This document shows, piece after piece, positions 842 through 43,181 of a stretch of 64,000 nucleotides of DNA. Numbering within the stretch: position 1 is the stretch's first letter; each line of letters starts with the position of its first letter. Origin of the DNA: Desulfovibrio sp. UIB00 (GTDB lineage: Bacteria; Desulfobacterota; Desulfovibrionia; Desulfovibrionales; Desulfovibrionaceae); NCBI RefSeq assembly GCF_022508225.1, contig NZ_JAETXJ010000003.1:1-64000 (forward strand), read 5' to 3'. A model generated the notes under the pieces. The model searched no databases. It saw only the letters and a program-made list of their open reading frames with translations, and was not told the origin of the DNA. Made by a program: the position numbers and the translations under genes.

Positions 842-844
842 GGC

Positions 845-2057: not shown

Positions 2058-2062
2058 TTGCT

Positions 2063-11464: not shown

Positions 11465-11467
11465 GGC

Positions 11468-26514: not shown

Positions 26515-27603
26515 TCAGGCGGGCAAGCCCATTTGCAGGCGGATGTGGCGTACATCCGCTTCTTCAGGTTTGAATGGGTAGTTGCGGATTCCCGGCCCGG
26601 GGCGTGAGTTGGCGTAGGGGCGGTTGCAGGCCACCTCGCCGTCGCGCCCTGTGCAGCCGCAGGTGCGGAATGGTTCGCCCGCATCAATGACTGCATCCAG
26701 ATCAGCCTTGGTCAGGCCGTATCCTGTGAGGGCGTGGCGGTCGTTATAGGTGAAGAACCGCTCGTGGGCGTGGTCATTGTCGATGAGCCAGCGCGCAAGC
26801 TGAATGCGGCGGTACTGGTCAATGGGCGGCGGCAGGCGGTGCGCCAGCGGCGATCCCCCTTCGGGAAAAAACGAAAACAGATGCGTGTTGCCGCCCATGT
26901 CGTGCACTCGCTGCATGGCGCGGCACATGTCCTGCTCGGTTTCGCCCATGCCCACCATAAAGTGCGCCCCGGCCATTCCATGGCCAAATATGTCCAGACT
27001 CTCGCCCAGACACTGCCAATATCGTTTCCATGAGTGCGGCCCACCGACCCCCGCCCCACGGTAATGGTCAAACAGTTCCGGTGTGGCAAGGTCAATGGCT
27101 ACGCCGATCTTGTCCGCCCCGGCTTCGCGCAGTTCCTCAAGGTTTCTGCGGGTAAGGATGGTGGGCGAAACCAGCATGGAAACGGGAATATCAATGGCCT
27201 GCCGCAAACGGCGGCATATCTCTGCAGCATCGCGCGGTGCGCGGCTGTTGGTGAGCATGGAAATACAGATGCGCTTGACGCGTTCCTGACGCCGCACGAT
27301 GCCCGCCACAATTTCATCAACGGTAAATGCTGGCCAGGTCACGCGGATAAAACTTTTGCTCGAGCTTTCCTTCTTTTCTTTTGCGCCAGAGAGGCCGCAG
27401 TAGGCGCACTTGGCAGCGCAGCCCGAGCGGTAGGTCAGCAGCAGGTTGATGCACGAAAGGCAGGCGTTGCGGTAGAAAGAGCCGGGGGCGAAATCGAGCG
27501 TCATGGCGGCGGCAAGGCTCATGCGCGCAACCTCGGGGCTTTGGGGCTGCGTTTGCTGCCAGCAGGGCGGGCATTGGTTTTCAAGTTGGGTGGCTTGGCT
27601 CAT
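26515..27603 (-). CDS. Radical SAM protein, LipS-like (biotin synthase-like)
   Basis: A 362-residue radical SAM enzyme with CX3CX2C at C62/C66/C69 and a biotin synthase-like C-terminal part carrying CGCTGRDGEVACNRPYANS. LipS1 and LipS2 are two radical SAM proteins, first annotated as biotin synthase-like, that together insert sulfur into octanoyl groups in archaea and in sulfur-oxidising bacteria. This gene and its neighbour at 27676, next to a lipoate ligase and a LipT-like flavoprotein, match that set. The ATG at 27603 has GGAG upstream. Which of LipS1/LipS2 it is I cannot settle; the CNRP tail suggests LipS2. Confidence 0.75.
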   Translation of the reverse strand: MSQATQLENQCPPCWQQTQPQSPEVARMSLAAAMTLDFAPGSFYRNACLSCINLLLTYRSGCAAKCAYCGLSGAKEKKESSSKSFIRVTWPAFTVDEIVAGIVRRQERVKRICISMLTNSRAPRDAAEICRRLRQAIDIPVSMLVSPTILTRRNLEELREAGADKIGVAIDLATPELFDHYRGAGVGGPHSWKRYWQCLGESLDIFGHGMAGAHFMVGMGETEQDMCRAMQRVHDMGGNTHLFSFFPEGGSPLAHRLPPPIDQYRRIQLARWLIDNDHAHERFFTYNDRHALTGYGLTKADLDAVIDAGEPFRTCGCTGRDGEVACNRPYANSRPGPGIRNYPFKPEEADVRHIRLQMGLPA

Positions 27604-27675: not shown

Positions 27676-28713
27676 CTACCAGCCCTTTGTTCCCTCGCCC
27701 AGCAGCACCGAGCAGCATGTTTTGCGAAATTCCGCCTGTAATCCCATGCGGGCAGCCAGTGCGGCTGCCTCGTGCGAGGGCAGGGCCATACGGTTGATGC
27801 CCGCCCGCAGCGAAAGAACTTCCAGAGCGCTGGCATCCCGCCTCGGGCGTGCGCAGCCAAGGCTTAGCTGGCTCTGCGGCATAAGCTCACGCGCGCGGAT
27901 CACAAGCCCGCACACGCCGCGCGGGTCTGGCTGGCGCACGTTTTCCATAGCTGTGCCAGCAAGGTTCATGTAGGCCACGATCACCAGCAGCTCTGGCGGA
28001 TGACGCGCCAGAATTTCCAGCGCGTGGTTTTCACCCGCAAACCTCCCAAAATGCAGACCTGCCACAATGTGCGGAACAACCGGCAGCTCTGCCGCAGCCA
28101 GGGCCTCAAGGCTTTGCTCAAGCAGTTGGGGGCCGTCCGGCAGATGATAAACGCTGGCATAGGTCTTTTCGCTGCCAATAACGTCAAGCAGGGCCTGATC
28201 CACGCCAGCCCGTCGCAGGGCCAGAGCCGCGCGGTCGTCCACCATGCCGCAGTGCACGGAAATATAGAGTCCGGTTTCCTGCTTTATGGCAGCAATCGTG
28301 TCGGTAAAATCCTCCCACGGCACTTGTCCGCGCCCGTTGCAGCCGCCGGAAAGCAACACCCCTTGCGCGCCCTGCGCCACCAGATCGCGGCATTTTTGCA
28401 ACAGCCGCTGGGGGGAGCTGACGTCAGGCATATTGAGCAGCAGCTTGCCGCCGCAGTGGGCGCATTGCTGGCGGCAGTTGGCCCCGGTGATGGAAAGCGC
28501 CGGGTACTGGCCCTGCACGCCGTCGCGTACATACATGCCGGGCAGATAGAACAGTATTTTTTTGCCGTGGATTTTCCACGAAAGTTCACGTGCTTCATTA
28601 AGCCGCGCACTATCCCAGCGCAGTTCAGAAGGGATATCCGCTGGCCACGAGGAATAGTAGCCGCCGTATGTTCCAGTGGCGGAATTTCCGCAGGATTCTT
28701 CAGCTTGCAGCAT
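27676..28713 (-). CDS. Radical SAM protein, second LipS-like subunit
   Basis: A 345-residue radical SAM protein with CX3CX2C at C80/C84/C87 (CRQQCAHCGG), a glycine-rich LLSGGCNGRG SAM-binding strand and further conserved Cys near the C-terminus (RKTCCSVLLG). The start at 28713 overlaps the end of the LipT-like gene by 14 nt, with AGGGA upstream, so translation is coupled. Together with the gene at 26515 it would form a two-protein lipoyl synthase, each contributing one of the C6/C8 sulfur insertions. Assignment rests on the cluster as much as on motifs. Confidence 0.72.
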   Translation of the reverse strand: MLQAEESCGNSATGTYGGYYSSWPADIPSELRWDSARLNEARELSWKIHGKKILFYLPGMYVRDGVQGQYPALSITGANCRQQCAHCGGKLLLNMPDVSSPQRLLQKCRDLVAQGAQGVLLSGGCNGRGQVPWEDFTDTIAAIKQETGLYISVHCGMVDDRAALALRRAGVDQALLDVIGSEKTYASVYHLPDGPQLLEQSLEALAAAELPVVPHIVAGLHFGRFAGENHALEILARHPPELLVIVAYMNLAGTAMENVRQPDPRGVCGLVIRARELMPQSQLSLGCARPRRDASALEVLSLRAGINRMALPSHEAAALAARMGLQAEFRKTCCSVLLGEGTKGW

Positions 28714-29770
28714 AGTATTCCCTGAATCCTATCCAGAATCTGTTGATGGCTTTGTCGAGCGAGCCTGTGTGCGCCTCCCATAAAAGGCGGCGCTGGTGCG
28801 CGTGCGACAGAGCGTCGCCGTAAAAATCGGCCCATTCTTCCTCGTAGCCCAGCAGAAGGGTCAGATCGCCATCCAGCACAGCCTTGGCGGCCCAGCGGCC
28901 AGCCATTTCTCCCCCCACCACGGCCTGAAAAATACCAGCCCCTGTGATGGGATGGGTGTGCCCTGCGGCATCGCCTGCAAGTACAGTGTCGCCATATACA
29001 CAGGGGCGGGGCGATCCTGCGGGTATCCAGCCGCCTGTGAGGCCCAGCGGCCTGTCAGCCACAAGGCCAAGCCCGGCCATGCCGCGCACAAAGCGCCGGA
29101 GCGCCCAGCGCAGGCCCGGCGTGCCGGGGGTGGACAGCATGCCAAGGCCCACGTTTGCCACATTGCCCTTGGGGAAAACCCAGGCGTAGCCAGCGCGGAT
29201 GCTTTCATCAAAATAGATGTGGGTGTGTTCCAGATGTTCCAGCAGGGGCAGACGCACCTGAATGGACGGCAGGCAGTGCGGGCGGGGCAGGCCAAGCCAG
29301 CGCGCCACGCGCGAAACAGGGCCGTCAGCCCCGATAACAACCTTGGCTGACACGCCCACAGTGGCGCTGTTCGGCGCGGACAGCAGCACTTTGCCGCCCG
29401 CGCCGCCTTCGCGGCCAACAGCGGCGTGACCAAGAAGAATCCTCGCGCCGCTGCTCACGGCGGCACGGGCAAGAGCCTGATCGAACATTTCCCTGTCGAT
29501 CACGCAGCCGGGGGCGCTCATATCCTGTATGCAGCGGCCATGCAGAAAGCTGCGCATGCCTGTTGTGCGCTGCACGATGTATTCGTCCCCCACGTTGGCC
29601 TGCCCGACCAGCATGGCCGGGATGTATTCCGCGCAGCGAACGGGCCTGCCCACAATGCGCCGCCGCTCGGCAACAATTACTGAAGCCCCGGCCAGAGCCG
29701 CAGCCCGCGCGGCGCTTGATCCGGCAGGGCCGCCGCCCACCACAAGAACATCGCAGTTGAGTACGCGCAT
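28700..29770 (-). CDS. FAD-dependent oxidoreductase, geranylgeranyl-reductase family (LipT-like)
   Basis: A 356-residue flavoprotein. VLVVGGGPAGSSAA near the N-terminus is the Rossmann FAD motif, VIGADGPVSRVAR is the family's second motif, and GDAAGHTHPITGAGI is the third FAD motif. Its length and motifs fit the geranylgeranyl reductase-like family to which LipT, the flavoprotein found with LipS1/LipS2, belongs. Start choice: the frame opens at 29812 inside the ligase gene, but the ATG at 29770 has a GGGAGG site and begins 5 nt beyond the ligase stop. Probably supplies electrons to the LipS-like radical SAM pair. Confidence 0.78.
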   Translation of the reverse strand: MRVLNCDVLVVGGGPAGSSAARAAALAGASVIVAERRRIVGRPVRCAEYIPAMLVGQANVGDEYIVQRTTGMRSFLHGRCIQDMSAPGCVIDREMFDQALARAAVSSGARILLGHAAVGREGGAGGKVLLSAPNSATVGVSAKVVIGADGPVSRVARWLGLPRPHCLPSIQVRLPLLEHLEHTHIYFDESIRAGYAWVFPKGNVANVGLGMLSTPGTPGLRWALRRFVRGMAGLGLVADRPLGLTGGWIPAGSPRPCVYGDTVLAGDAAGHTHPITGAGIFQAVVGGEMAGRWAAKAVLDGDLTLLLGYEEEWADFYGDALSHAHQRRLLWEAHTGSLDKAINRFWIGFREYYAAS

Positions 29771-29774: not shown

Positions 29775-31355
29775 CTACCTCCCGGCGTGGCCTTGCGCCT
29801 GCTGCGCCACACGCAAAATGGAGTGCAGCAGGGGCATGTTCAGGCTTGTCTGGCTGCGGAACTGCCCCTGATGGGCGGCCTCGCTCTGATCCAGCTCGTA
29901 GCAGGTGGTGTTTTCTATATCTATGAGAATGCCGGGCAGGCCCATGCGGTCAAAATCTTCCGCATGCTTGATGTAGAAGGGCTGGCAGCAGCAGCCGATG
30001 AAGGCGGACACGCCCTGCCCCTTGAGCTTGCCCAGTTCTTCCATGAGATCTTCAAAGTTGGTTATGCAGACCGTGCGCAGTTTGCGCTCATGCCCCAGAG
30101 CCCAGGCTTCGCCTACGGAACATTCGCCGCAGGCGCGGCAGGCCTTGGTAAAGCGGAGGTCGCAGTCCTTGAGTTTTGCGCAGTAGGGCAGCAGCAGGGC
30201 TTGCGGCCCGGCGGCCAGCACCTGATCAAAGTTGCCGTTGGTGGTGAAGATGCGGTTGCAGTGTTCAATTGGGATGCCGTGGCGGGCAATGGCGGCTTTT
30301 TCCATGGCCATGCGCAGGGGAATGCAGATGTCTTCCGCGTTCATGTCTGGTATGGCTATATGCCCTTCGTTGAAAAAGTCGTGGATGCTGCCGCAGAGGT
30401 GCTCCGTATTCAGGGGCTGTCCGCGCAGGGCAGCCTCAAGGTCAAAGAGGGCACGCGCGGGGAAAGACAGGAAGTCTCCGGTAATAAAAACGTTTTTGAG
30501 CACACGGCGCGGCATGTTCAGCTGCATGGTCACGCGCACAAGGCCGTAAGGCGATTTGCGCGCGCCCTGCACCACCTCTGTCTTTTCATAGGTGGGGCGC
30601 ACCATGTCTATCCATTCCTGCGACTGAAAATAGGGCAGCCGCTCGGCAAGCTTGTCTTCCTCCTCGGCGGTGAGGCCGCCGGGCACAAGGTTTATACCCA
30701 TGTGCCGCTCAAAGGCATCGGCAAGGGCCGCTTTGATGTCAGCGCTGGCAGGCACGTGTCCAAGCTCCCACGCCAGACAGGTGACGCGCTTTTTGATGGA
30801 ATCAATTTCCTTGGCTTTCAGCTTTTCCACAGGCACGCGCAGGCATTTGAGCATGGTTTCCACGTCAAAATCCACCAGCAGCGTACCCTGGAACAGAAAG
30901 GCCGCGTCGCAGTCCGTACCGCCTGTGCCGGATATCTTGCGGCCAGCAACTTCTATGTCGTTGCGGGGGCGAAATGCCGCGTCAATGCCCATGCCGCGCA
31001 GGGCAGTGACGGTAGGTTCGCACAGGCGGCGGAACAAGTTGGCGTTGGGAATGCCCACGCCAAAAAAAGACTTGTCGCAGATAAGCTCCCAGCCGATCTG
31101 GTTTTCATCAAAGAGCAGGCCGCCACCGCCCGTGATGCGGCGGTTGATGTCGATTCCCTGCTCGCGGCAGTAGGAAAGGCGGATTTCTTCCTGTATGGAC
31201 TGGTGAAAACCCACCAGCACCGTTGCCGGTTTGAACTGCAAAAAACGCAGCGTATCCTGTGAGCGGCCACTGCCGCGAATTTCAAGCAGCACCTCGTCAA
31301 GGGCCATGTTTTCCGCCGCCGTAAGCGGCGGCAAATCAAGCAATCGCCACTGCAT
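29775..31355 (-). CDS. Lipoate-protein ligase fused to a C-terminal DUF116 Cys-rich domain
   Basis: 526 residues. Residues about 1-260 are an LplA-type ligase: RRITGGGG (72-79) and DIEVAGRKISGTGG with the conserved Lys140. An LplB-like accessory domain follows (to about 345). The last 160 residues match DUF116, with a Cys-rich run YCAKLKDCDLRFTKACRACG and GCCCQP that could hold an iron-sulfur centre. The enzyme would attach lipoate or octanoate to the E2 and GcvH-like carriers encoded next door. An AGGAGG site precedes the ATG. The ligase-DUF116 fusion in a LipS/LipT cluster suggests that ligation and sulfur insertion are coupled. Confidence 0.82.
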   Translation of the reverse strand: MQWRLLDLPPLTAAENMALDEVLLEIRGSGRSQDTLRFLQFKPATVLVGFHQSIQEEIRLSYCREQGIDINRRITGGGGLLFDENQIGWELICDKSFFGVGIPNANLFRRLCEPTVTALRGMGIDAAFRPRNDIEVAGRKISGTGGTDCDAAFLFQGTLLVDFDVETMLKCLRVPVEKLKAKEIDSIKKRVTCLAWELGHVPASADIKAALADAFERHMGINLVPGGLTAEEEDKLAERLPYFQSQEWIDMVRPTYEKTEVVQGARKSPYGLVRVTMQLNMPRRVLKNVFITGDFLSFPARALFDLEAALRGQPLNTEHLCGSIHDFFNEGHIAIPDMNAEDICIPLRMAMEKAAIARHGIPIEHCNRIFTTNGNFDQVLAAGPQALLLPYCAKLKDCDLRFTKACRACGECSVGEAWALGHERKLRTVCITNFEDLMEELGKLKGQGVSAFIGCCCQPFYIKHAEDFDRMGLPGILIDIENTTCYELDQSEAAHQGQFRSQTSLNMPLLHSILRVAQQAQGHAGR

Positions 31356-31484: not shown

Positions 31485-32756
31485 TTACGCCTGCGCTGAT
31501 GCCGCCGCCTGAACTGCTTGTGCCGTGCTGTCTGCCCTGGCTTTTGCCTCACTGGCGTGCGCCTGGAGTGAGCGGGCCACAAGCTGGCTCATGTCCAGCA
31601 CTTCTATGTTCACCTTGTTGCGCTTGGCATAGGTGGTCATGGTGCGCACGCACTGCTGGCAGTTGGTCACAATGGCCTGCGCCCCGGTGCGTACGGCTTC
31701 TTCAACCTTGCGCTTGGACATGGCCGCCGAAAGATCGGGGTCGATCATTTCCAGGTTTCCGCCGCCGCCGCAGCACAGGCAATGCCGCCTGTTATGCTCC
31801 ATTTCCACAAGCGTCAGGCCGGGAATGCGCGCCATGACCTCGCGCGGCTCGTCAAACACGCGCCCGCCGCGCCCCAGATCGCAGGGGTCGTGGTAGGTCA
31901 CTGTCATGGGCAGCTCGCCAAGGGGCAGCCTGTTTTCAAGCACGAGCTGCATGACCATTTCAGAGGCATGCGCCAGCTCGAATTCCGGCGGGTAGGATTC
32001 GCGCCAGATCTGGTAGCAGGAGGGGCAGGTAAACACGACCTTGCGCGCGCCCCGCGCCTTCACAGCCTCCACATTATGCTTGATGATGGCGGGCAGATCG
32101 GCGCTCTGGCCGGAACCCACAAGGGGGAAGCCGCAGCACCATTCATCGCCTGCCATGATGGTAAAATCCACGCCTGCGGCTTCCAGAATTTCCACAAAGG
32201 CCATAGGTATTTTTTGCGCCAGCGGAAAGTACGCGCCTACGCAGCCAGTAAAATAGACCACTTCAGCCCTGGCTTTCTGCCCGCCGCCCTTGGGGGGCTT
32301 GCGCATGTCGTCCACCCAGTCGCCGCGTTCGTCGTTGTCTTCGGCAAAGACGTTGTGGCTGTCTTCAAGATTGGTGCGGATCATGCGGATTTTTTCCGGG
32401 GCGTCGCCCGTGCGCGAAAGTTCTTCGCGCAGGGCGAGCCACAGATCTTTAAGGGGCAGGCCAGCGGGGCATACTTCCTCGCAATCGCCACAGAGCGAAC
32501 AGCGAAACACCGAAGTGCCGTATTCCTTGAGGCGTTCCGGCGTGGCCACAGGTTCGCGCCCCAGCACTTCGCCCAAGGCCCGCCAGAGGAAACTGCGGTC
32601 GCGCAGGAGCTTTTTCAGGTTGTCCATACGCACCTGAGCCGAAAGATCCGCGTCGCCCGATGCCGCCACCGCCGGACACACTGTCAGGCACTGCCCGCAT
32701 TCGGTGCAGGCGTCGAGCGCCATGCGCTGTCGTATGCTGAATGCTGTGTGACGCAT
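31485..32756 (-). CDS. HdrD/GlpC-like iron-sulfur protein with two CCG domains
   Basis: 423 residues. Two ferredoxin-type CX2CX2CX3CP motifs (C17-C27 region and about 86-97) bind [4Fe-4S] clusters. Two CCG domains follow (WCCGFPLVGSG...CPSC and HDPCDLGRGG...CLCCGGGG), the type that forms the noncubane clusters of heterodisulfide reductase HdrB/HdrD. No signal peptide, so cytoplasmic. It starts 3 nt after the GcvH-like gene and shares the transcript with an 11-haem/cytochrome b-like protein, the probable membrane partner. By analogy with sHdr-LbpA systems it may reduce or oxidise the lipoyl group on the GcvH-like carrier. That link is inference. Confidence 0.85.
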   Translation of the reverse strand: MRHTAFSIRQRMALDACTECGQCLTVCPAVAASGDADLSAQVRMDNLKKLLRDRSFLWRALGEVLGREPVATPERLKEYGTSVFRCSLCGDCEEVCPAGLPLKDLWLALREELSRTGDAPEKIRMIRTNLEDSHNVFAEDNDERGDWVDDMRKPPKGGGQKARAEVVYFTGCVGAYFPLAQKIPMAFVEILEAAGVDFTIMAGDEWCCGFPLVGSGQSADLPAIIKHNVEAVKARGARKVVFTCPSCYQIWRESYPPEFELAHASEMVMQLVLENRLPLGELPMTVTYHDPCDLGRGGRVFDEPREVMARIPGLTLVEMEHNRRHCLCCGGGGNLEMIDPDLSAAMSKRKVEEAVRTGAQAIVTNCQQCVRTMTTYAKRNKVNIEVLDMSQLVARSLQAHASEAKARADSTAQAVQAAASAQA

Positions 32757-32759
32757 GAT

Positions 32760-33185
32760 TTAATCCTTTTTGAACTTCTTGATGTCCTCTTGCAGCCATG
32801 CTTCAAGAACGTCCTTGCCGCCGTGAATGAGGGTATTGATCTGGCTCATGTCGGCGGGCTTGATCCTGTACATCCAGCCCTTGCCGTAGCAGTCGCCGTT
32901 GATGAGGGTTGGGTTGGCCTCCAGCTCTTCGTTGACTGCCGTGATTTCGCCGTCGGCGGGGCTGTAGACGGTGCCAAGCCATTTGCCCGATTCCACCTTG
33001 GCGAACTTTTTCCCGGCGGTGACGGCCTTGCCCACAAAGGGCAACTGCACAAACACGATCTGGCCTGCCAGCTTTTCGGCAAAGTCGTCCATGCCAATGA
33101 CCAGCTCGTCGCCGTCAACGCGGGTCCAGAAGTGGTACTGGTCGTAGTACAGTTCCTCGGGCATGTTGTATCCGGCAATTTCCAT
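32760..33185 (-). CDS. GcvH-like lipoyl carrier protein
   Basis: A 141-residue single lipoyl-domain protein. VESGKWLGTVYSPADGEI places the lipoyl lysine at Lys68, aligned with the VESVKA site of glycine-cleavage H protein. The sequence between and after differs from standard GcvH, and no gcvT or gcvP is nearby. It lies between the multihaem/membrane protein (30 nt away) and the HdrD-like gene (3 nt away). It is therefore more likely a dedicated carrier, comparable to LbpA of the sHdr sulfur-oxidation system, than part of glycine cleavage. The adjacent lipoate genes would modify it. Confidence 0.88.
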   Translation of the reverse strand: MEIAGYNMPEELYYDQYHFWTRVDGDELVIGMDDFAEKLAGQIVFVQLPFVGKAVTAGKKFAKVESGKWLGTVYSPADGEITAVNEELEANPTLINGDCYGKGWMYRIKPADMSQINTLIHGGKDVLEAWLQEDIKKFKKD

Positions 33186-33215
33186 GATTAACTCCTTAAT
33201 GTGATGGGTTAGGCC

Positions 33216-35219
33216 TTAGTGGCGGCCGCGAATGGTCTGAACAAGCAGGAACAGGGGAGCCGTGAACATGTGCCGCAACTGGCTGAAGGGTATGTAAGCC
33301 ACCGTCAGCGCGGTGAGCACCGCATGTGCGTACCAGCCCCAGCCGTAGATGCGCGCCAGCGTTGCCTGCCCCAGAGGAGCAAGGCCCAGCGCCAGCGCAT
33401 GCCCGGCAAAGGCATAGCCGCTGCCTTCTGGCATGCCCGTGAGGGCGATGCGCATGCCTTCAAGCACAAAGCCCGTTAGCGTGATGCCCAGCAGCAGATA
33501 CAGCGCAAGCCAGTCGTGGCGCGGTGCGTTTGCAACGGCGCTTTTTTCGCGCCGCCACAGCACGGCGGCCAGCAACAGGCCCAGCAACAGGGCAAGCCCG
33601 CTCAGATCAAAGAGGAAGGCTCCAGCACCCCAGTTTTTATCCAGCAGCAGCCAGGGCCATTCCTGCGCGGGCGACAGGAGCGAACCAGTCAGACCCAGCA
33701 GACCCCAGACAAAGCGGAACAGGAAGGGGAAGAATATGAGCGCATGCACGGCCCAGCGCAGGGGCGATTCCCGGTAGAGCCGCCGTTGCAGGAAGACATC
33801 GCAGCACAGGGCAACCCATCGGTTTTCACCAGTTGCGTGCTGGTGCGGCGCGGGGCAGGCGTGGCTTTGCCCCGTTGCGGCATCCCCATCTGTGCCCTTT
33901 TGCGGCGATCCCTTGCCCAAATTGGCGCAAGAGAACCAGAACAGCCCCATGCCAGCAAAGACCAGCACAAATACGCCAAGACCGATCTGACCGGAGGTGT
34001 CCTGCACACTGAATGTGGCAGCGTGGCACCCCATGCAGAGCACGCTCTTGGGCGGCAGTATGGCGTTGGCAGCGCCAACATTGCCGTTGCCCGCAAAGCC
34101 ACTTGTGGAGCCGCCAGAATCTGCGCTCCTCGCCACGGTTGAGACAGGGGCGGCGCTATGGCAGCGCACGCAGGAGGCTGTGCCGCTGGCAAGGGTCATG
34201 GAATGCACGTTGAGCGGCCCGGAATTGATGGCATAATCAACCTTGCCGTCCTTGAGCACTGGTGTGACGCCGGAAAGATGGCACGCCCCGCAGCTCACAT
34301 TGCTGTGGGCATCATGGATTGTCTTTTCGTCATGCCTTGTGTGGCAGGTGAGGCAGTTGACGCGTTCCTGCCTGTTGTGAGGGTACCGTGCCGCATCCTT
34401 GTGGCAGGTGAGGCAGTTCATGTCGCCGTGGGTCATGGATTTCATGCCCTCAGCGGAGATTCTGGGCGTGACCGCAGCAGGCGCGGCAGCGCTTGATTCC
34501 GGTCCGTGACAAGAGAGGCACATTGCTGGCCCCTGCGGTTCTTTGCCCTTGTTAAATGCCACAGGCGCTGCGGTGGAGCCGCCCTGAGGCCTGGAGGCAG
34601 ATACGCCAGCAGCTATGCCCTTGCCAGTCTTGAGTCCATGGCAGGAAAGACATGCGGCAACATCTGGCGCGGGCTTGGGCAGGTCTGTCTGCGTCTTGTG
34701 GCAGACGCCGCAGGATTGGCTCATGTCGCCCGCAGGGCGCAGACCCTTGGCTCTGGCCTCGGGCGCGAGAACATAGTGTGGGTTGTGACAGGTAACGCAG
34801 TTGTTATAGTCCTGCGTTTTCATTACCGGTTTGCCGCCGTGCATCCCTTTTGCCAGATTATCTTCAACTTCGCCGTGGCATTGCAGGCAGGTTTCCCGGT
34901 CAAATGCCGTACTGGCGGGCTTGTTGAGTTTGTCTGCCCGTGGGTGCTGGTGGTCGGCCTGCTCGGCGTGACAGTCTGCGCACGACATGTTGGCATGGGC
35001 AGAGGCGTGGAAGCCTGTTTCATCTATAAACCACGTTCTGCCCGGTCTGACGGCGGTGTTTTGCTGGTCGTCACCCGCATGAGCGGGCAGGGTAGCCGCC
35101 AACAGCACGATACAGGCCGTTATCATGCAGGCCGCAACAGCATGGGCCGTCAGCGTACGGGCCGCCGGAAACATCGGGGCGGCCTTGGTTGGGCCGCATT
35201 TGCGCATCCTCAGCTTCAT
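33216..35219 (-). CDS. 11-haem cytochrome c fused to a NarI/HdrE-like membrane domain
   Basis: 667 residues. An N-terminal signal/anchor (about 25-48) is followed by a periplasmic region with eleven CXXCH haem sites (for example CADCH, CLQCH, CVTCH, CGVCH, CLSCH twice, CLTCH twice, CGACH, CVRCH, CMGCH). From about residue 405 there are about six hydrophobic helices with scattered His, like the cytochrome b subunit NarI/HdrE. Its downstream neighbours are the lipoyl carrier and the HdrD-like protein, so it probably connects that soluble pair to the quinone pool or to periplasmic cytochromes. The GAGGAG site supports the start at 35219, 10 nt after the LipB-LipA gene. Confidence 0.85.
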   Translation of the reverse strand: MKLRMRKCGPTKAAPMFPAARTLTAHAVAACMITACIVLLAATLPAHAGDDQQNTAVRPGRTWFIDETGFHASAHANMSCADCHAEQADHQHPRADKLNKPASTAFDRETCLQCHGEVEDNLAKGMHGGKPVMKTQDYNNCVTCHNPHYVLAPEARAKGLRPAGDMSQSCGVCHKTQTDLPKPAPDVAACLSCHGLKTGKGIAAGVSASRPQGGSTAAPVAFNKGKEPQGPAMCLSCHGPESSAAAPAAVTPRISAEGMKSMTHGDMNCLTCHKDAARYPHNRQERVNCLTCHTRHDEKTIHDAHSNVSCGACHLSGVTPVLKDGKVDYAINSGPLNVHSMTLASGTASCVRCHSAAPVSTVARSADSGGSTSGFAGNGNVGAANAILPPKSVLCMGCHAATFSVQDTSGQIGLGVFVLVFAGMGLFWFSCANLGKGSPQKGTDGDAATGQSHACPAPHQHATGENRWVALCCDVFLQRRLYRESPLRWAVHALIFFPFLFRFVWGLLGLTGSLLSPAQEWPWLLLDKNWGAGAFLFDLSGLALLLGLLLAAVLWRREKSAVANAPRHDWLALYLLLGITLTGFVLEGMRIALTGMPEGSGYAFAGHALALGLAPLGQATLARIYGWGWYAHAVLTALTVAYIPFSQLRHMFTAPLFLLVQTIRGRH

Positions 35220-35229: not shown

Positions 35230-36819
35230 TCAGCACGCTTCGCAAGTATTGGCAGCCAGCGGGGCCGCGTCTGTCAGACTGGTCAGCATGGCCTCCGCGC
35301 GGTACGAGCTGCGCACCAGCGGGGCGGAAGCCACGCCCGTAAAGCCCATGGCAAGGGCTGTTGCCTTCCAGTGGTCAAATTCGTCAGGGGCCAGATGCCG
35401 CGCCACAGGCACGTGCGCTCCAGAGGGGGCCAGATATTGCCCAAGGGTCAGAAAACGGCAGCCGTGCGCCAGCAGATCGGCCAGGGCCAAGCGAATTTCG
35501 CTCCATGTTTCGCCAAGGCCCAGCATGATGCCGGATTTTACGCGCAGACCTTGATTGGCAGCGAATTGCAGCACTTCAAGTGACGTTTGATAGCTGGCCC
35601 CTGGGCGCACATATGGAAAAAGCCGCCGCACGGTTTCGAGATTATGGTTGAACATATCAGGGCGGGCGTCGCACACCGCATCAAGAGCGTTGCGGTCGCC
35701 CTGAAAATCCGGCACCAGCACTTCAACGCTTGTCTGCGGGCTTGTGCGGCGTATGGCCCTGATGGTGCGTACAAAATGATCCGCGCCGCCGTCAGGCAGA
35801 TCATCCCGCGTAACAGACGTTATGACAGCATGGTGCAGCCCCAGCCTGTGTACGGCCTGCGCGACGTTGTCCGGCTCGGATGGATCGAGAGGCGTGGGCG
35901 ATCCCTTGGCAACGGCGCAGTAGCGGCAGCCTCGGGTGCATCTGTCGCCCATGATGATGAAAGTTGAAGTGCCGCGTGAATAGCATTCACCCTTGTTGGG
36001 GCACTGGGCCTCCTGACACACGGTGTGCAGGTTGAGGTCGGCCAGCATGTTCTCCACCGGGCGTATCCCGGCATCGGGGCGCAGTGAGACGGTCAGCCAG
36101 CCGGGGCGGTTTGCAGCCAGGCCTGTGCGGGGCGCAAAATCAAATTCATGGGCAAATGCCTGAACAAAGCAGCGTGAAACTTCGGCAAAATCAACCTGAC
36201 CTCCAAGCTCGGCTGCCATGGAGGTAATGCGTTCCGCCGGGTTGCCGCAGGGGGTAATGAGGCGGAACCAGTTCACATCGGTATTCACGTTCAGGGCCAT
36301 GCCGTGAAAGGTCACCCATTTGCGCACGGCTACGCCCACGCTGGCGACTTTGCCGCCGTTTACCCACACTCCGGGGCCGTGGACACCCAGTTGAGGCTCA
36401 AGACCGAAGGAGCGCACCACCGAGGCGATGGCTGCCAGCAGCTTTTCCATATACAGGTGCAGGTCTTTTTGCCGCAGGCGGATAACGGGATAGGCCACAA
36501 GCTGGCCGGGGCCGTGAAAGGTCGCCATGCCGCCGCGTTCCACCCAGTAGAGCCCGACTCCCTGACGCTGCAACTGCTCCTCGGTCACGTGCAGATGGGC
36601 CGCCGTGCCGCCGCGCCCCATGGTGATGACGGGATCGTGCTCAAGCAGCAGAAGGGTATCGTCCACGGTATCGCTGACGCGCGACTCCACGCGGCGCTTC
36701 TGAAAGTTCAGGGCTTCGCCGTATTCGATGCGCCCAAGATCCAGCACCTCCAGCGGAACAGGCTGGACGGGCGCGGAGCTGGTATCGGTATCTTGTTGGC
36801 AAAGGGATAAGGCGGACAT
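35230..36819 (-). CDS. Fused octanoyltransferase (LipB) and lipoyl synthase (LipA)
   Basis: 529 residues. Residues about 20-235 are LipB: RGGMATFHGPGQLVAYP, the Lys157 region GGKVASVGVAVRKWVTFHG and the acyl-carrier Cys191 in LITPCGNP. Residues about 236-529 are LipA: CX4CX5C (C268, C273, C279) for the auxiliary cluster, CX3CX2C (C294, C298, C301) for the SAM cluster, and the C-terminal RSSYRAE that ligates the auxiliary cluster. Both halves look intact. In one chain it transfers octanoate from ACP and then adds both sulfurs. It sits in the same gene run as the alternative LipS/LipT/ligase set. Confidence 0.92.
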   Translation of the reverse strand: MSALSLCQQDTDTSSAPVQPVPLEVLDLGRIEYGEALNFQKRRVESRVSDTVDDTLLLLEHDPVITMGRGGTAAHLHVTEEQLQRQGVGLYWVERGGMATFHGPGQLVAYPVIRLRQKDLHLYMEKLLAAIASVVRSFGLEPQLGVHGPGVWVNGGKVASVGVAVRKWVTFHGMALNVNTDVNWFRLITPCGNPAERITSMAAELGGQVDFAEVSRCFVQAFAHEFDFAPRTGLAANRPGWLTVSLRPDAGIRPVENMLADLNLHTVCQEAQCPNKGECYSRGTSTFIIMGDRCTRGCRYCAVAKGSPTPLDPSEPDNVAQAVHRLGLHHAVITSVTRDDLPDGGADHFVRTIRAIRRTSPQTSVEVLVPDFQGDRNALDAVCDARPDMFNHNLETVRRLFPYVRPGASYQTSLEVLQFAANQGLRVKSGIMLGLGETWSEIRLALADLLAHGCRFLTLGQYLAPSGAHVPVARHLAPDEFDHWKATALAMGFTGVASAPLVRSSYRAEAMLTSLTDAAPLAANTCEAC

Positions 36820-36924: not shown

Positions 36925-38289
36925 TCAGCCCCGCTTGGGCAGGTACAAGGCCCACCCGGCGGCATCGCGTGCGGCATCGACAACGGTTTCGCAAAAGGCC
37001 GGATGCACGCGGAAGCCCTTGGCGAACTCGCGCACCGTGCATTCAAGCTGCATGGCAAGTACCGCCTCGCCGATCAGCTCGGAAGCATTGCTGCCCACGA
37101 TGTGCACGCCCAGGATTTCGCCCGTGTCGGCATCGGCAACCATTTTTACTGCGCCGTCCACTTCGCCGCGCAACATGGCATAGCCGTTGATGGAATATGG
37201 AAAACCACCCACTTCAACCTCGTAGCCCTTGCGCTCGGCCTGTTCTTCAGAAAGGCCCACGGAACCCATTTCCGGGCTGCCCCAGATGGCGCGGGAAACA
37301 AGGTGGCAGGGGAACTTTGCGGACACGCCCATGCTGTTTTCCGCCGCGCAGATGCCCATGGCCGAGGCCGCATGGCTGAGCATCCATCCGCCCGTGCAGT
37401 CGCCAATGGCAAAAATGCTCGGGCAGGCTGTGCGGCACTGCTGGTCAACGCCTATACTGCCGTCTTCATTGAATTTAACGCCCAGAGCTTCCAGGCCCAG
37501 ATTGGAGGCAACGGGCTTGCGGCCAGATACCAGCACCCTGTCGGCCTCAACGGTCTGTTCCTTGTCGCCGCTTTTGATGGTGCAGGTTTTGCCCGCAACC
37601 TTGACGAGGGTGTGTCGGGCAATGATCTGCACGCCGCGCTCACGCAGGGACTGGGACATGCGCTGGCTGGAATCCTGATCTTCATCGGGCAGAATGCGCG
37701 GGCCGGGCACGGCATAGATGACCTTGCTGCCAAGGATGCTCAGCAGGGTAGCCATTTCAACGCCGATATAGGTGGGATCGGTAATAAGCACCGAGGCCGG
37801 AGCTTCCGTCATGTCCAGCAGCTGGTCTGTGGTAAAGGCGGCCTGATCCAGACCGGGAACATCGGGTTTTGCAAGGGTGCTGCCCGTGGCGATGATGATA
37901 CTCTTGGCCTCAACCTTTTTGCCCGCCACATCCACAGATGTGGGCGAGGTCACAACAGCCATGCCGGGGATCACGTCCACGCCGTTGTTGGCGAGCAGCG
38001 CTTCCATACCCATGCGGATATCGTTGGAAACGCCCTGTTTGCGGGCCAGAACAGCGGTAAAATCCAGCTTGCCCACAGTGAGTTCCAGACCAAATTCGCC
38101 CGCCTTGCGCGACTGTTCCAGCAGGGTGGCGGCGCGCAGCCATATCTTGCTGGGAATGCAGCCGCGCATAACGCAGGTGCCGCCCATGTTGCCGCCTTCC
38201 ACCAAGGCCACCTTGCCCTTGAGCTGCGAAGCGCGAATGGCCGCAGCATAGCCGCCGGGGCCGCCACCTATGACAACTACATCGTACAT
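36925..38289 (-). CDS. Dihydrolipoyl dehydrogenase (E3)
   Basis: A 454-residue FAD/NAD disulfide oxidoreductase that reoxidises dihydrolipoyl groups of E2 proteins. VVVIGGGPGGYAAAIRA is the FAD motif. GGTCVMRGCIPSK carries the redox pair C39/C44. FAIGDCTGG and the C-terminal HPAFCE (active-site His-Glu region) are present. No fused lipoyl domain. The open frame extends to 38397, but the ATG at 38289 with an AGGAG site gives the normal start. It follows the second E2 gene by 67 nt and probably serves the acetoin dehydrogenase complex. Confidence 0.92.
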   Translation of the reverse strand: MYDVVVIGGGPGGYAAAIRASQLKGKVALVEGGNMGGTCVMRGCIPSKIWLRAATLLEQSRKAGEFGLELTVGKLDFTAVLARKQGVSNDIRMGMEALLANNGVDVIPGMAVVTSPTSVDVAGKKVEAKSIIIATGSTLAKPDVPGLDQAAFTTDQLLDMTEAPASVLITDPTYIGVEMATLLSILGSKVIYAVPGPRILPDEDQDSSQRMSQSLRERGVQIIARHTLVKVAGKTCTIKSGDKEQTVEADRVLVSGRKPVASNLGLEALGVKFNEDGSIGVDQQCRTACPSIFAIGDCTGGWMLSHAASAMGICAAENSMGVSAKFPCHLVSRAIWGSPEMGSVGLSEEQAERKGYEVEVGGFPYSINGYAMLRGEVDGAVKMVADADTGEILGVHIVGSNASELIGEAVLAMQLECTVREFAKGFRVHPAFCETVVDAARDAAGWALYLPKRG

Positions 38290-38356: not shown

Positions 38357-39736
38357 CTAAAAAAGCAGCAGGGCCGGTTCCGCCAGATATTCCACAAGTG
38401 TCTTCAAAAATTCTGCTGCGGGCGCGCCGTCTTCAACACGGTGGTCAAAGGTGAGGCTCAAGCCCATCATGGAGCGGGCCACCACGGCCCCCTCGCGGAT
38501 AACGGGCTTTTCCACCACGCGCCCCACGCCCAGGATTCCCGTTTCACCGGGCTTGAGAATGGGCGTGAAGAAATCCACCACGGAATGCGCCATGTTGGTG
38601 ATGGTGAAGGTGCCGCCGCTCATGTCGTCGGGCGTCAGATCGCCTTTGCGGGCGCGACCAGCAAGCAGGCGGGCTTCCCTGGCTATTTCAAGCAGGGTCA
38701 GCCTGTCCGCATGGTGCAGCACGGGCACTATCAGGCCCTCGGGCAGGGCAACGGCCACGCCCATATGCACCTCGCCGTGACGGGTGATGGTTTGCCCGTC
38801 AAAGGTGGCGTTCATGCGCGGGTGCTTTTTCAAGGCCTTGGAAACGGCCAGAATAAGCATGTCGTTCATGGAAAGGCGGAAGTCTTTGTTCTTTTTGTTG
38901 CGGGCCTTGAAGTCGCTGATGATATGCACGCAGGGGGTTACATCCGCCTCGCTCACAAGGGTGAGCTGGGCGGAGTTTTGCAGGCTGCCCAGCATGTTGT
39001 CGGCAATGATCTTGCGCATGCCTTCCATGGGCACGGAGCTTGGCTCGCTGCTGCAAACGGCGCTGGCGCAGGTTGACTGAGACGCACCTTGGCCCGCGTT
39101 CTGCGCCGCAGCGAACTTTTCAGGGTGCAGGACGCGGTCAACATCTTCGCGCAAGATCTTGCCGCCTTCGCCAGTGCCTGTGAGGGTGGAGATATCCAGC
39201 CCTGCCTTGGCGGCAACGGCAGCGGCAAGGGGCGTGATCCTGATTTTTCCGATAACTTCCTGGCGGGCCTGCACATCGTGCTCAACGATGCGGCCTCCAG
39301 GGCCGGAGCCTGCGATGCAGGCAAGGTCAATGCCAAGTTCACGCGCCAGCCGCCGAGCGGCGGGAGACGCTATCCCGCCAGTGCTAGAGGGTTGCACGGC
39401 GGCTGACGCGTTGGTTTTTGCGGGCTTGGGCGCGCCCGCTTCCGCAGTGGCGGAAGCGGGGGAGTCAGACGCGCCTTCAACCCGGGCGATTGTTTCACCA
39501 GGTTCGGCCAGGATGCCAAGCACGGCGCCCACGGCCACTTCCTGTTTGGGCTGCACCATAATCTGGAAGAGCACGCCATCGGCGGGGCTTTCCACCTTGT
39601 TGGTGATTTTGTCGGTTTCCACTTCAAACAGATCATCGCCCTGCTTGACTGCGGCGCCTTCGGCCACAAACCATTTGGAAACCTTGCCGGTCTTCATGGT
39701 CAGACCAAGTTTCGGCATGGCCAGTTCTATGCTCAC
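38357..39736 (-). CDS. Second dihydrolipoamide acyltransferase (E2) with tandem E3-binding domains
   Basis: 459 residues. N-terminal lipoyl domain with Lys43 (VETDKITN), Ala/Pro-rich linker, then two successive peripheral subunit-binding domains (about 122-155 and 165-200: SPAARRLARELGID...GPGGRIVEHDV and ITPLAAAVAAKAGLD...GEGGKILREDV). The catalytic domain ends with SLTFDHRVEDGAPAAEF, keeping the HxxxD active site. The start is a GTG at 39736 with AGGAG upstream; codons above it are not E2-like. It is the second E2 in the run but no second E1 is present. It may partner E1 AcoAB or an unlinked E1. Confidence 0.87.
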   Translation of the reverse strand: MSIELAMPKLGLTMKTGKVSKWFVAEGAAVKQGDDLFEVETDKITNKVESPADGVLFQIMVQPKQEVAVGAVLGILAEPGETIARVEGASDSPASATAEAGAPKPAKTNASAAVQPSSTGGIASPAARRLARELGIDLACIAGSGPGGRIVEHDVQARQEVIGKIRITPLAAAVAAKAGLDISTLTGTGEGGKILREDVDRVLHPEKFAAAQNAGQGASQSTCASAVCSSEPSSVPMEGMRKIIADNMLGSLQNSAQLTLVSEADVTPCVHIISDFKARNKKNKDFRLSMNDMLILAVSKALKKHPRMNATFDGQTITRHGEVHMGVAVALPEGLIVPVLHHADRLTLLEIAREARLLAGRARKGDLTPDDMSGGTFTITNMAHSVVDFFTPILKPGETGILGVGRVVEKPVIREGAVVARSMMGLSLTFDHRVEDGAPAAEFLKTLVEYLAEPALLLF

Positions 39737-39788
39737 TGCTGTTCTCCTGCGATGTTGTGTGTTAGGGCGGAAGGCTGCCTTTTTGCCG

Positions 39789-40568
39789 TCAGCGGTAAAC
39801 CATGCCGCCGTCAATAAGCACGGCCTGCCCTGTCATGTAGTCGGAGTCCGGCCCTGCCAGATAGGAAACAAAGGCTGCCACGTCTTCCGGTGTTTCGGGG
39901 CGGCCAAGGGCTATGCCTTCGCAGTATTTCTTGTAGGTTTCGCCCTTGGGGGCGCCTGTGATCTTTGAAAAGCCCTCGTCAATGGCTACCCACATGTCGG
40001 TGCCGACCACGCCGGGGCAGTAGGCGTTTACGGTGATACCGCTTGAGGCAAGCTCCCGCGCCGCTGCCTGGGTAAGGCCGCGCACGGCGAACTTGGTGGC
40101 GCTGTATGCGCCGATAAGGGCAAAGCCATCGTGCCCGGCAATGGAAGAAGCGCTGATGATCTTGCCCTTCTGCTTGCGGGCCATGAATTTGGTGGCTGCT
40201 GCCTGAATACCCCAAAGTACGCCGTTGACGTTGATTCTGAAGATGCGTTCAAGCTCTTCGGGGGTGACGTCCAGCAGAGCCTTGACCTGAGCGATGCCCG
40301 CGTTGTTGATCATGACGTCAAACCCGCCCAGTTCCTTTTCCGCGTGATCCACGGCGGCAAAAACCTGCGCGCGGTCGCTTACGTCGGCAATAAAGGTGGT
40401 GGCCTTGCGGCCGAGGGCACGTACTTCACCCGCTGTGGCAGCCAGTTTGTCCGCGTTCATGTCCACAAGGCAGATATCCGCGCCATCCTTTGCCAAACGC
40501 AGGGCAATACCGCGTCCTATTCCCTGAGCGGAGCCCGTAACCAGAACAACTTTGCCGTTAATAGTCAT
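39789..40568 (-). CDS. Short-chain dehydrogenase, acetoin/diacetyl reductase-like
   Basis: A 259-residue [11 protein letters not shown] (11-18) binds NAD(P), NNAG at about 88-91, catalytic Ser about 141, Tyr155 and Lys159 in the YxxxK motif. The C-terminus and overall sequence fit meso-2,3-butanediol dehydrogenase/(S)-acetoin-forming diacetyl reductase (BudC type). The ATG at 40568 has GGAGG upstream. Location among aco genes supports a role in interconverting diacetyl, acetoin and 2,3-butanediol. Stereospecificity cannot be read from the sequence. Confidence 0.83.
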
Positions 40569-40667: not shown

Positions 40668-40982
40668 TCAGGCAAAAATTCCGTCGCCGCTGACATTGCC
40701 AAGGCCGGGATGAATATCGAAGCGCACAACGCCCACAGGCACCTTGACCGCCCGTGCGACCATGGCCGCGCCCTCGTAGCCAAAGCCGCCGCACAGCTCG
40801 ATGGCAACGCAACCGTCTTCATCCACGGCCTTTTGCGCCGCTTCAACGGCCTCCCTGTAGGATGTCACGCCGATGGTCAGCAGTTCCACGCCGGGGGTGC
40901 GCGTCCAGCTGCGGTGCTCGGCCTTGACGCCGTTGCCTTCGCCACGGGGGCTCAGAAAGATGAATGCAGCCTTGAGTTTCAT
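40668..40982 (-). CDS. DUF6506-type small protein
   Basis: A 104-residue protein with MKLKAAFIFLSPRGEG at the start and ELCGGFGYEGAAMVARAV in the middle, which I place in the DUF6506 family. An ATG at 40988 is in frame, but its AGGAG would be 1 nt away. The ATG at 40982 has proper spacing. Function unknown; the position inside the aco run, between acoX and the SDR, suggests an accessory role in acetoin metabolism. Confidence 0.7.
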   Translation of the reverse strand: MKLKAAFIFLSPRGEGNGVKAEHRSWTRTPGVELLTIGVTSYREAVEAAQKAVDEDGCVAIELCGGFGYEGAAMVARAVKVPVGVVRFDIHPGLGNVSGDGIFA

Positions 40983-41030
40983 AAACATGCTCCTGGTGTT
41001 GGGGATTCAGGCTTGATGCAGATATGCCGC

Positions 41031-42044
41031 CTAGTTGGCGTAGCAGACCTGCGCGCCGCGCAAAAACAGCCCTCGTTGCCGGGCGTATTCCATGACGCGG
41101 GCCACATCCACCACGCGCATGGTGTCTTCTGACAATCGTATGCTCGCGCGCTGCCCGCGCCGAACCTCCACCTCGCGCTCGCCGTCCAGCGCCAGCACGC
41201 AGGGAGTAAGCCCCACCGGCACATCATCGCCCGGCAGCAGCTGGCGCACACGGGAAACGCCCACATCGGCAAACAGACCGGGGCCGATGGCGGCCCGCAC
41301 GCGGCAGGCAAAATCGGGATCAAGATCAAGGGCCAGACCGCGCGGTTCTTCGGGCGAGATGCTCATGAGCTGCCCGGCTACAGTGGAGAGGCCGATGCTG
41401 TCTGGCCGACAGCGGGAAACAACAATCTGGCTGACTCTGGTGATGTCCCATATGGCGCGGGAGCCGAGAAAAAGGTCGTCGTACACAGCCACATCCACCA
41501 GAGCGATATCTCGGAACTGACCGTCCACGTGCACTTCAAGCAGGCTGACTTCGCGGCAACCTTCGTCATGCGTTACGCCGCCGCAGGCCAGTACGCCCGC
41601 AGCAAGCCCAGCCACCGTGGCTTCGGCCATGACCGGAAAAACGTTGTTGGTGCCGGTGGAGAGCGGCAGAATAGGCGTTTTGCGCGCGCCCTTGCAGGCG
41701 GCGCGGCTTGTGCCGTCGCCCCCCATGACGATGATGACCGCAACCCCCTCCTGCTGCATGAGGGCGGCGGCGTTGATGGTGTCCTCCTGCGTATTGTGCA
41801 GGTAAATATCCACCGGAGCCACGTTCACAGGCGTTTCCAGAGCTTCCAGATCGCTCAGGGCGCGCGGCACGATGCCGTAGCCCTCGGGCATATACAGAAC
41901 ATCACGTACCCCGGCGGCGGCCAGACCAACCAGAATACGGCGCACCATGCGCACCTTTTCCTGATTGTCAAAAACACTGCCGTGCGCGACGATGCGGCGT
42001 ATGTCCTTGCCTGATGCGGGATTGGCGATAATGGCTGCTTTCAC
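41031..42044 (-). CDS. acoX: AcoX, NAD kinase-like protein of acetoin operons
   Basis: A 337-residue protein with the ATP-NAD kinase fold: ANPASGK at the N-terminus, IIVMGGDGTSRAA (the GGDGT motif) and LPLSTGTNNVFP. AcoX is regularly found beside acoABC in other bacteria, but its biochemical role has not been settled. It is separated from acoB by a 110-nt gap holding a large hairpin, which may reduce expression relative to acoABC. Confidence 0.85.
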   Translation of the reverse strand: MKAAIIANPASGKDIRRIVAHGSVFDNQEKVRMVRRILVGLAAAGVRDVLYMPEGYGIVPRALSDLEALETPVNVAPVDIYLHNTQEDTINAAALMQQEGVAVIIVMGGDGTSRAACKGARKTPILPLSTGTNNVFPVMAEATVAGLAAGVLACGGVTHDEGCREVSLLEVHVDGQFRDIALVDVAVYDDLFLGSRAIWDITRVSQIVVSRCRPDSIGLSTVAGQLMSISPEEPRGLALDLDPDFACRVRAAIGPGLFADVGVSRVRQLLPGDDVPVGLTPCVLALDGEREVEVRRGQRASIRLSEDTMRVVDVARVMEYARQRGLFLRGAQVCYAN

Positions 42045-42154: not shown

Positions 42155-43126
42155 TTATCGCAGCGACTTGACCGCAGCGACGATCTGATCCGCGCCGGGA
42201 ATGTAGGCCTTTTCCAGCGGCGGGCTGAAGGGGACGGGGCAGTAGGGAGCGCCCACGCGCAGGATGGGCGCGTCCAGATAGTCCAGGGCTTCCTCGGCCA
42301 CCATGGCGGCGATTTCCGCTCCTGCTCCGGCGGTTTTGACGGCTTCGTGCGCAACCACAAGGGCGTGGGTTTTCTTGACGGAATTAAGGATGATGTCCTT
42401 GTCGAGCGGCACCAGACAGCGGGGGTCCACCACTTCGGCGCTGATGCCCTGAGCAGCCAGGGTTTCTGCGGCCTGAAGGGCGGAGTGAACCATGAGTGAC
42501 GTGGCCACAATGGTCACATCCGTGCCTTCGCGCTTCACGTCGCCCTTGCCAAGCTCAATGGGGGTCGCCTCGTCGCCCACTTCGCCTTCCACGCCATACA
42601 GAATCTTGTGTTCGAGAAAGACCACGGGGTTGTCGTCGCGGATGGCGCTGATGAGCAGGCCCTTGGCGTCTGCCGGGGTGGAGGGGATGCATACCTTGAT
42701 GCCGGGAATGTGCATGAACCATGCTTCAAGGCTCTGGGAGTGCTGGGCCGCAGCGCCCACGCCAGCTCCCTGCGGCATGCGCAGCACCATGGGCACCTTG
42801 GCCTTGCCGCCGAACATGTAGTGCATCTTGGCGGCCTGATTGAAGAGCTGGTCAAGGGCAACGCCGATGAAGTCCACAAACATCAGTTCAGCCACGGGGC
42901 GCAGACCGGCTGCGGCAGCGCCGGCAGCAGCGCCCACAATGGCGCTTTCCGTAATGGGTGTGTCGCGCACGCGGCGTTCGCCAAACTGGTCAAAAAGGCC
43001 CTGAGTCACGCCAAAGCAGCCGCCAAACTTGCCCACGTCTTCACCGATGATGAACACGTTTTCGTCCCGCTCCATCTCCTGACGCATGGCATCGTTAAGC
43101 GCTTGCAGGTAGGTTTTGATCGCCAT
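42155..43126 (-). CDS. acoB: Acetoin dehydrogenase E1 beta subunit
   Basis: A 323-residue transketolase-like E1 beta subunit. It contains GEDVGKFGGCFGVTQGL, RDTPITESAIVGAAAGAA and MPQGAGVGAAAQHSQSLE, all typical of pyruvate/acetoin dehydrogenase beta chains. An ATG at 43138 is in frame, but GGAG lies 6 nt before the ATG at 43126, giving MAIKTYLQAL. With AcoA it decarboxylates/cleaves acetoin via thiamine diphosphate and passes the acetyl group to the lipoyl E2. Confidence 0.92.
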   Translation of the reverse strand: MAIKTYLQALNDAMRQEMERDENVFIIGEDVGKFGGCFGVTQGLFDQFGERRVRDTPITESAIVGAAAGAAAAGLRPVAELMFVDFIGVALDQLFNQAAKMHYMFGGKAKVPMVLRMPQGAGVGAAAQHSQSLEAWFMHIPGIKVCIPSTPADAKGLLISAIRDDNPVVFLEHKILYGVEGEVGDEATPIELGKGDVKREGTDVTIVATSLMVHSALQAAETLAAQGISAEVVDPRCLVPLDKDIILNSVKKTHALVVAHEAVKTAGAGAEIAAMVAEEALDYLDAPILRVGAPYCPVPFSPPLEKAYIPGADQIVAAVKSLR

Positions 43127-43181
43127 ATTTTTCTCCATTCTGAAAATCTGAAGGTGGTTTCCGCAGTTTCAGGCAAACGCT

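Follow-up and report, generated by a model that had tools for sequence, protein, structure and literature searches.

Why does a lipoyl carrier of the GcvH type lie between a multihaem membrane cytochrome and an HdrD-like protein, next to a dehydrogenase complex that has lipoyl proteins of its own? The question is raised by a locus of Desulfovibrio sp. UIB00, on the first 64,000 nucleotides of contig NZ_JAETXJ010000003.1 (the whole of this stretch is called the window below). Our answer, which we hold to be probable, is that the three genes and the lipoylation genes next to them form a portable respiratory module, in which a dihydrolipoyl carrier would pass electrons through HdrD and haem b to quinone or periplasmic cytochromes. 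Gene order and cofactor ligands are conserved, the set is inherited together with lipoylation genes, and the neighbouring dehydrogenase is exchanged.

Conservation and co-inheritance of the gene set

The open reading frames confirm what the initial annotation had described on the minus strand, namely genes for a cytochrome, a carrier and an HdrD-like protein that are separated by gaps of only 30 and 3 nucleotides (Table 1). As a tight set these three genes stand as claimed, but four further lipoylation genes had been overlooked; after a gap of 129 nucleotides, HdrD is followed by a lipoate–protein ligase fused to DUF116, a LipT-like flavoprotein, and LipS1- and LipS2-family lipoyl synthase subunits.

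A search with the HdrD-like family alone found 79 loci in named genomes; their genes were called by a simple script and matched against the proteins of the window. Region L138, in which this script called no genes, is left out. Seventy of the loci reach at least 48% identity, and the carrier adjoins HdrD in 65 of these; among the other five, three are truncated where the contig ends, and two (L082, L090) have no carrier. Across 395 Desulfobacterota genomes, the carrier is present in 40/41 genomes with HdrD versus 30/354 without it (p = 2e-34), and in 56 of the 59 genomes with LipS2 (p = 9e-51); these p-values are overstated, as related genomes are not independent, and the thresholds were chosen after the score gaps had been seen. 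LipS2 matches separate into strong ones (E below 1e-55), which are those of the 59 genomes, and weak ones (E about 1e-17 and above). The initial annotation had staked its proposal on co-occurrence of the three genes elsewhere, and this is seen in many genomes; because of this co-occurrence and the conservation of the locus, the arrangement is not due to chance. Among 12 sampled genomes of the window's genus, HdrD, carrier and LipS2 are all found in six, and none of them in the other six; in the family sample, HdrD occurs in just 5 of 119 genomes. Being patchy in the family and all-or-none in the genus, the set is therefore transferred or lost as a whole.

One locus thus holds two lipoylation systems, a LipB–LipA fusion on the upstream side and the ligase–DUF116/LipT/LipS1/LipS2 group downstream of HdrD. 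The best matches of the latter two proteins are NF053742 and NF053743 (E 1e-63), yet both remain below the curated cut-offs. As in LipS1/LipS2 lipoate assembly systems, they are clustered with a lipoate ligase and a flavoprotein of the geranylgeranyl reductase superfamily. LipT/LipS genes come after the ligase–DUF116 fusion in 18 of 19 loci, and after a short ligase in one of 26, which suggests that DUF116 takes part in LipS-type lipoyl assembly, perhaps as an Fe–S electron donor. The DUF116 part of the window fusion is rich in cysteine. LipB–LipA is encoded in 14 of the 19 oxoacid/acetoin (E1/E2/E3) loci with enough flank and in none of 22 others (p = 3e-7), and the ligase lies 3′ of HdrD in both oxoacid/acetoin and hydroxyacid settings. 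Because LipB–LipA accompanies only E1/E2/E3 and the ligase occurs in both settings, the distribution fits a division in which LipB–LipA serves E2 and the other system serves the carrier. The dedicated LipS1/LipS2-type genes are the strongest single sign that the carrier is probably lipoylated and would have a separate role. Only 42% of LipS1/S2-containing bacteria have the soluble sHdr complex (PMC10332631).

Cofactor sites of the three proteins

The carrier has a clear match to GCV_H (E 2e-36, 124.8 bits); it lies above the cut-off of the GcvH subfamily PRK01202 and below that of the gcvH equivalog TIGR00527 (110 vs 115.85 bits). Like the lipoate-binding protein LbpA, it has a lipoyl-attachment-type lysine within a GcvH fold, with Lys68 as the predicted site. 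The surrounding motif, ESGKWxG, is invariant in all 69 carriers aligned; Cys99 is found in 66 of them and is missing only in Chloroflexota. Glycine cleavage H proteins are encoded with, or serve, gcvT and gcvP. As first noted, neither gene is near the carrier; a canonical gcvT-H-PA-PB set with its own GcvH lies elsewhere in the same genome (L014). This genome has two more GcvH paralogues away from gcvT/gcvP (L015:10615-12448 and L016:7424-10034); both adjoin an E3-like disulfide oxidoreductase, and one also a glutaredoxin-like gene.

In the HdrD-like protein, both motif pairs of the initial annotation are complete, as in the D subunit of HdrDE: CXXCXXCXXXC [4Fe-4S] motifs are located at residues 17 and 86, and five-Cys CCG motifs start at 172 and 292. 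Among 80 such proteins, the cubane cysteines and all ten CCG cysteines are invariant wherever the column is present, the sole exception being C369 of L113, a sequence on a long branch. The structural model (mean predicted local distance difference test score 92.8) is closest to mycobacterial EtfD (Z 33.3 over 391 residues), followed by HdrB (Z about 22). Matches to aspartate/glutamate racemases (Z about 8) were set aside as reflecting a common Rossmann-like arrangement. EtfD itself is reported to be made non-catalytic by Thr539, which replaces a CCG cysteine, and by His583, an extra ligand (PMC13083937). The equivalent positions of the window protein are Cys208 and Ser246, and the latter is Ser or Thr, never His, in the 80 sequences. 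Since the CCG ligands are complete and the EtfD substitutions absent, the HdrD-like protein keeps a disulfide-active ligand set. Its scores are far under those of the curated DsrK (89.4 vs 400 bits) and TmcB (73.6 vs 735 bits) families.

The cytochrome was also correctly described as an 11-haem protein fused to a NarI/HdrE-like membrane domain. Its 11 CXXCH motifs span residues 80-399; the N-terminal part matches c-type cytochrome families in Pfam, and the C-terminal part scores just under the cut-off of Nitrate_red_gam (22.2 vs 22.9 bits). EtfD (Z 14.3) and NarI (Z 10.3) are the sole clear structural neighbours of the membrane domain, to which the structural reading is confined, the haem c part of the model being of low confidence. 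Among the aligned cytochromes, conservation covers the haem-binding motifs as well as His492, His632 and His650; the three histidines are also invariant (16/16) in haem-c-free versions from Chloroflexota and Desulfobacterota. A haem-c-free membrane subunit gave no match to Protein Data Bank sequences with phmmer, but fold comparison did give neighbours. With a NarI/EtfD-type fold and three invariant histidines, the domain is predicted to bind haem b as the HdrDE membrane subunit does, and because these residues persist in versions free of haem c, the path through haem b to quinone is the core that all forms of the module share. The Chloroflexota module without haem c comprises a NarI-type protein, HdrD, carrier and ligase. 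In two Chloroflexota loci (L189, L190; about 5-12 kb), genes resembling TusA and DsrE surround those for a NarI-type subunit, for HdrD and for a carrier with the motif LEAGKYIG.

Table 1. Genes of the Desulfovibrio sp. UIB00 locus and their positions in the window.
Feature	Position	Strand	Length	Remark
11-haem c-type cytochrome fused to NarI/HdrE/EtfD-type membrane domain (HdrE-like)	33216..35219	-	667 aa	
GcvH-like lipoyl carrier	32760..33185	-	141 aa	predicted lipoyl Lys68 in ESGKWxG; Cys99
HdrD-like protein	31485..32756	-	423 aa	two [4Fe-4S] motifs, two complete five-Cys CCG motifs
Lipoate-protein ligase (LplA/LplB-type) fused to DUF116	29775..31355	-		
LipT-like flavin adenine dinucleotide (FAD) oxidoreductase, geranylgeranyl reductase family	28700..29770	-		cluster position as in PMC10332631
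LipS1-family lipoyl synthase subunit	27676..28713	-		NF053742, 212.7 bits, curated cut-off 230
LipS2-family lipoyl synthase subunit	26515..27603	-		NF053743, 213.3 bits, curated cut-off 270
LipB-LipA fusion, canonical octanoyl transferase + lipoyl synthase	35230..36819	-		probably for E2 proteins
E3 dihydrolipoyl dehydrogenase of upstream complex	36925..38289	-		
E2 dihydrolipoyl acyltransferase, second copy	38357..39814	-		
Acetoin reductase / butanediol dehydrogenase	39789..40568	-		TIGR02415, above cut-off
AcoX-like NAD-kinase-domain protein	41031..42044	-		
E1 beta, thiamine pyrophosphate (TPP)-dependent	42155..43138	-		
E1 alpha, TPP-dependent	43182..44144	-		
E2 dihydrolipoyl acyltransferase, first copy	44559..45797	-		

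Partner enzymes, proposed electron route and rival explanations

The upstream genes had been taken for an acetoin operon. This is likely rather than proven: the acetoin reductase passes its family model, but E1 and E2 match models of the pyruvate/2-oxoglutarate dehydrogenase type. Acetoin is the likely substrate. Proteins of the Lin0512 family and DUF6506 (window 44180-44542 and 40668-40988), with no assigned function, recur inside module-bearing acetoin-type loci. A MerR-type regulator (24937-25821, plus strand) lies near the end of the lipoylation genes; its best match is the NCBIfam choline utilization activator, below the cut-off (374 vs 450 bits).

The further suggestion, that the module may be an alternative outlet for acetoin oxidation, did not hold in an acetoin-specific form. 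That form was dropped on the evidence of loci L010 and L109, and then of 30 GlcF loci: upstream partners are GlcD–GlcF type hydroxyacid oxidases in 30 loci, acetoin/2-oxoacid E1/E2/E3 in 20 and others in six, and at least four changes of partner type can be traced along the HdrD tree. Genes for LarA (lactate racemase family) and organic-acid transporters occur in several module loci. Since E3 is present in acetoin loci, the module would be an additional outlet there, not a replacement.

The lipoylation of Lys68, the contact between carrier and HdrD, the direction of flow and the final acceptor are, as we infer them, the following. The ligase–DUF116 protein, LipT, LipS1 and LipS2 would attach and build lipoate on Lys68, and the neighbouring dehydrogenase would reduce the lipoyl group to dihydrolipoyl. 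This input step may differ with context; in the acetoin/2-oxoacid setting, the carrier could be reduced by thiol–disulfide exchange with dihydrolipoyl-E2, or by E3 working backwards from NADH, and in the hydroxyacid setting by the CCG protein GlcF, fed by the flavin of GlcD. The dihydrolipoyl arm would then enter the CCG site of HdrD, where two non-cubane [4Fe-4S] clusters would re-oxidise it to the disulfide, the reverse of heterodisulfide reduction. The two cubane clusters of HdrD would hand the electrons on to haem b in the membrane domain, which would deliver them to menaquinone and/or the haems on the periplasmic side, the haem c chain serving as an acceptor in addition to menaquinone in the Desulfobacterota form. 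A route between a dihydrolipoyl carrier and quinone or periplasmic cytochromes, as initially proposed, thus remains the best-supported reading of genes that co-occur, but it is not specific to acetoin and it includes the lipoylation genes that had been missed.

Several points weigh against this route. Lipoylation, binding and turnover all rest on inference, and the upstream complex already has an E3 able to make NADH. At the threshold used, related carriers occur without this HdrD in about 30 genomes, and a few carriers have no adjacent CCG gene (L131:7550-7987 and L132:7117-7554, with the motif QSRKW, beside a short lipoate ligase and LipS2). EtfD provides an analogy for an HdrDE-type protein that takes electrons straight from a flavoprotein, without a disulfide, and some module members may handle sulfur, given the sulfur-transfer setting of L189 and L190. 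Energetics are a further concern. Lactate-type donors have potentials of about −0.19 V. As that of lipoyl is −0.29 V (PMC6067878), lipoyl reduction in hydroxyacid loci would be uphill unless the product is kept low or the flow differs; the energetics are less clear there, and flow could be reversed or split.

The carrier might instead bind sulfane sulfur or a sulfur–organic intermediate and present it to HdrD, oxidatively or reductively, as proposed for LbpA. LbpA is homologous to GcvH and is matured by LipS1/S2 together with a ligase of its own, the hosts of the module are mostly sulfate reducers, and the TusA/DsrE-like genes around Chloroflexota HdrDE and carrier relatives point the same way. 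The carrier tree includes a single LbpA locus as internal reference (L188; Chloroflexota genome G736, 1-11823), an shdr-etf-like cluster with three GcvH-like/LbpA genes, LipS2, LipS1 and a ligase. Its LbpAs share with the window carrier the KW after the lipoyl lysine; they also have KGCELP and a C-terminal cysteine. LbpA is defined by two conserved cysteines, one N-terminal and one C-terminal (PMC6067878). This signature is absent from the module carriers, in which Cys99 is the only conserved cysteine, and the tree places them in a clade of their own (100/97), apart from the two Cys-bearing LbpAs (100/99); the third L188 carrier is a long branch of uncertain placement. An assignment of the carrier to LbpA was rejected on these grounds. 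Beside Desulfobacterota modules, no TusA-, DsrE- or rhodanese-like genes were seen, and carbon-oxidising enzymes are found there instead. Overall, a sulfur-carrier role appears unlikely.

Direct transfer, in which HdrD and cytochrome re-oxidise a flavoprotein (E3 or GlcD/GlcF) and the carrier is accessory or structural, would suit the structural comparison, in which EtfD, an electron transfer flavoprotein (ETF):menaquinone oxidoreductase without disulfide chemistry, is the nearest solved structure for HdrD as well as for the membrane domain. We think this quite unlikely, given that EtfD has lost the catalytic-type CCG coordination that is fully kept here, that the window operon has no Etf genes, and that carrier and lipoylation genes are co-inherited with HdrD. 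It is very unlikely that the carrier is merely an intermediate in the lipoylation of E2, beside HdrD only through operon structure. The operon is indeed rich in lipoylation genes and encodes two E2 proteins, and GcvH is a lipoyl intermediate in the LipM–LipL route of Bacillus (PMC10332631); but LipB–LipA is already there for E2, GlcD/GlcF loci have carrier, HdrD and ligase but no E2, no LipL-type gene was recognised, and the carrier is strictly co-inherited with HdrD. The idea of a spare glycine cleavage H protein agrees with the GCV_H fold and the PRK01202 score and is hardly credible beyond that, as the genome has its canonical set, the lysine context is ESGKW, not ESVKA, and Hdr-associated carriers branch off from canonical H proteins (97/88).

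Relation to known systems and significance

Among the systems of sulfate reducers, DsrMKJOP with DsrC, and Tmc, similarly combine HdrD-like, NarI-like and c-type cytochrome subunits. DsrC is a small dithiol carrier too. It uses a cysteine dithiol, whereas the module would use lipoyl, and the DsrK and TmcB scores separate the families. Methanogen HdrDE shares an HdrD with two [4Fe-4S] and two complete CCG motifs and a b-type membrane partner; the module differs in lacking a coenzyme M (CoM)/coenzyme B (CoB) setting, with protein-bound lipoyl as the likely disulfide, and in a membrane subunit that is fused to 10-11 haems c, and it probably runs as a dithiol oxidase. The sHdr–LbpA system, with its LipS1/S2–sLpl–LipT maturation (PMC6067878, PMC10332631), also pairs a GcvH-fold carrier gene with a CCG-domain Hdr and its own lipoylation genes. 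The sHdr complex is soluble, whereas the module has a membrane-bound HdrDE-type couple and a multihaem cytochrome; the module also lies with carbon dehydrogenases rather than sulfur-transfer genes, and its ligase is fused to DUF116. No genes for the soluble shdr complex were among those called in the window from 21.7 to 52.9 kb. Mycobacterial EtfD (9OJN; PMC13083937), the closest solved fold, is a single ETF-linked chain with a non-catalytic CCG site, in contrast to the separate chains, full catalytic-type ligands and lipoyl carrier of the module. In the Ehe cluster of Culexarchaeia, GcvH adjoins HdrA2B2C2, and the authors propose in a single sentence that HdrB may have the lipoyl group of GcvH as its disulfide partner (PMC9723716); this is an archaeal hydrogenase setting without an HdrDE–cytochrome module. 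No description of the module was found in the literature searched, whose coverage left out most subscription journals.

Related carriers extend beyond this set. Some adjoin HdrABC and GlcD–HdrD fusions; in L133 and L143 the row reads HdrA-type, HdrC, HdrB, GcvH-like carrier and a GlcD–GlcF fusion (FAD oxidase plus CCG), and lipoyl-linked electron transfer between hydroxyacids and HdrABC is possible there, as far as gene content can tell. Others lie beside LarA and GlcD fusions (L134, L142) or HdrDE (L135, L145). To our knowledge, lipoate has few known roles, as the swinging arm of oxoacid and glycine complexes and in sulfur oxidation. It is a tentative but serious proposal that widespread lipoyl proteins, matured by LipS1/S2 or a dedicated ligase, may be diffusible carriers dedicated to two-electron transfer between oxidoreductases with CCG domains (GlcF, HdrABC, HdrDE), lipoate then being a respiratory electron carrier itself, beyond swinging arm or sulfur carrier. 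Because CoM-S-S-CoB is not known from organisms other than methanogens and their relatives, the disulfide substrate of orphan HdrD and HdrB proteins has been an open question. If the module works as proposed, lipoate would gain a respiratory role through a conserved carrier linked to a quinone-linked HdrDE couple, and LipS1/S2 would be offered a function in many organisms without sHdr. The module would, moreover, account for the transfer of electrons from acetoin and hydroxyacids to the membrane in anaerobes without NADH, and would provide a candidate disulfide substrate for the orphan HdrD and HdrB proteins.

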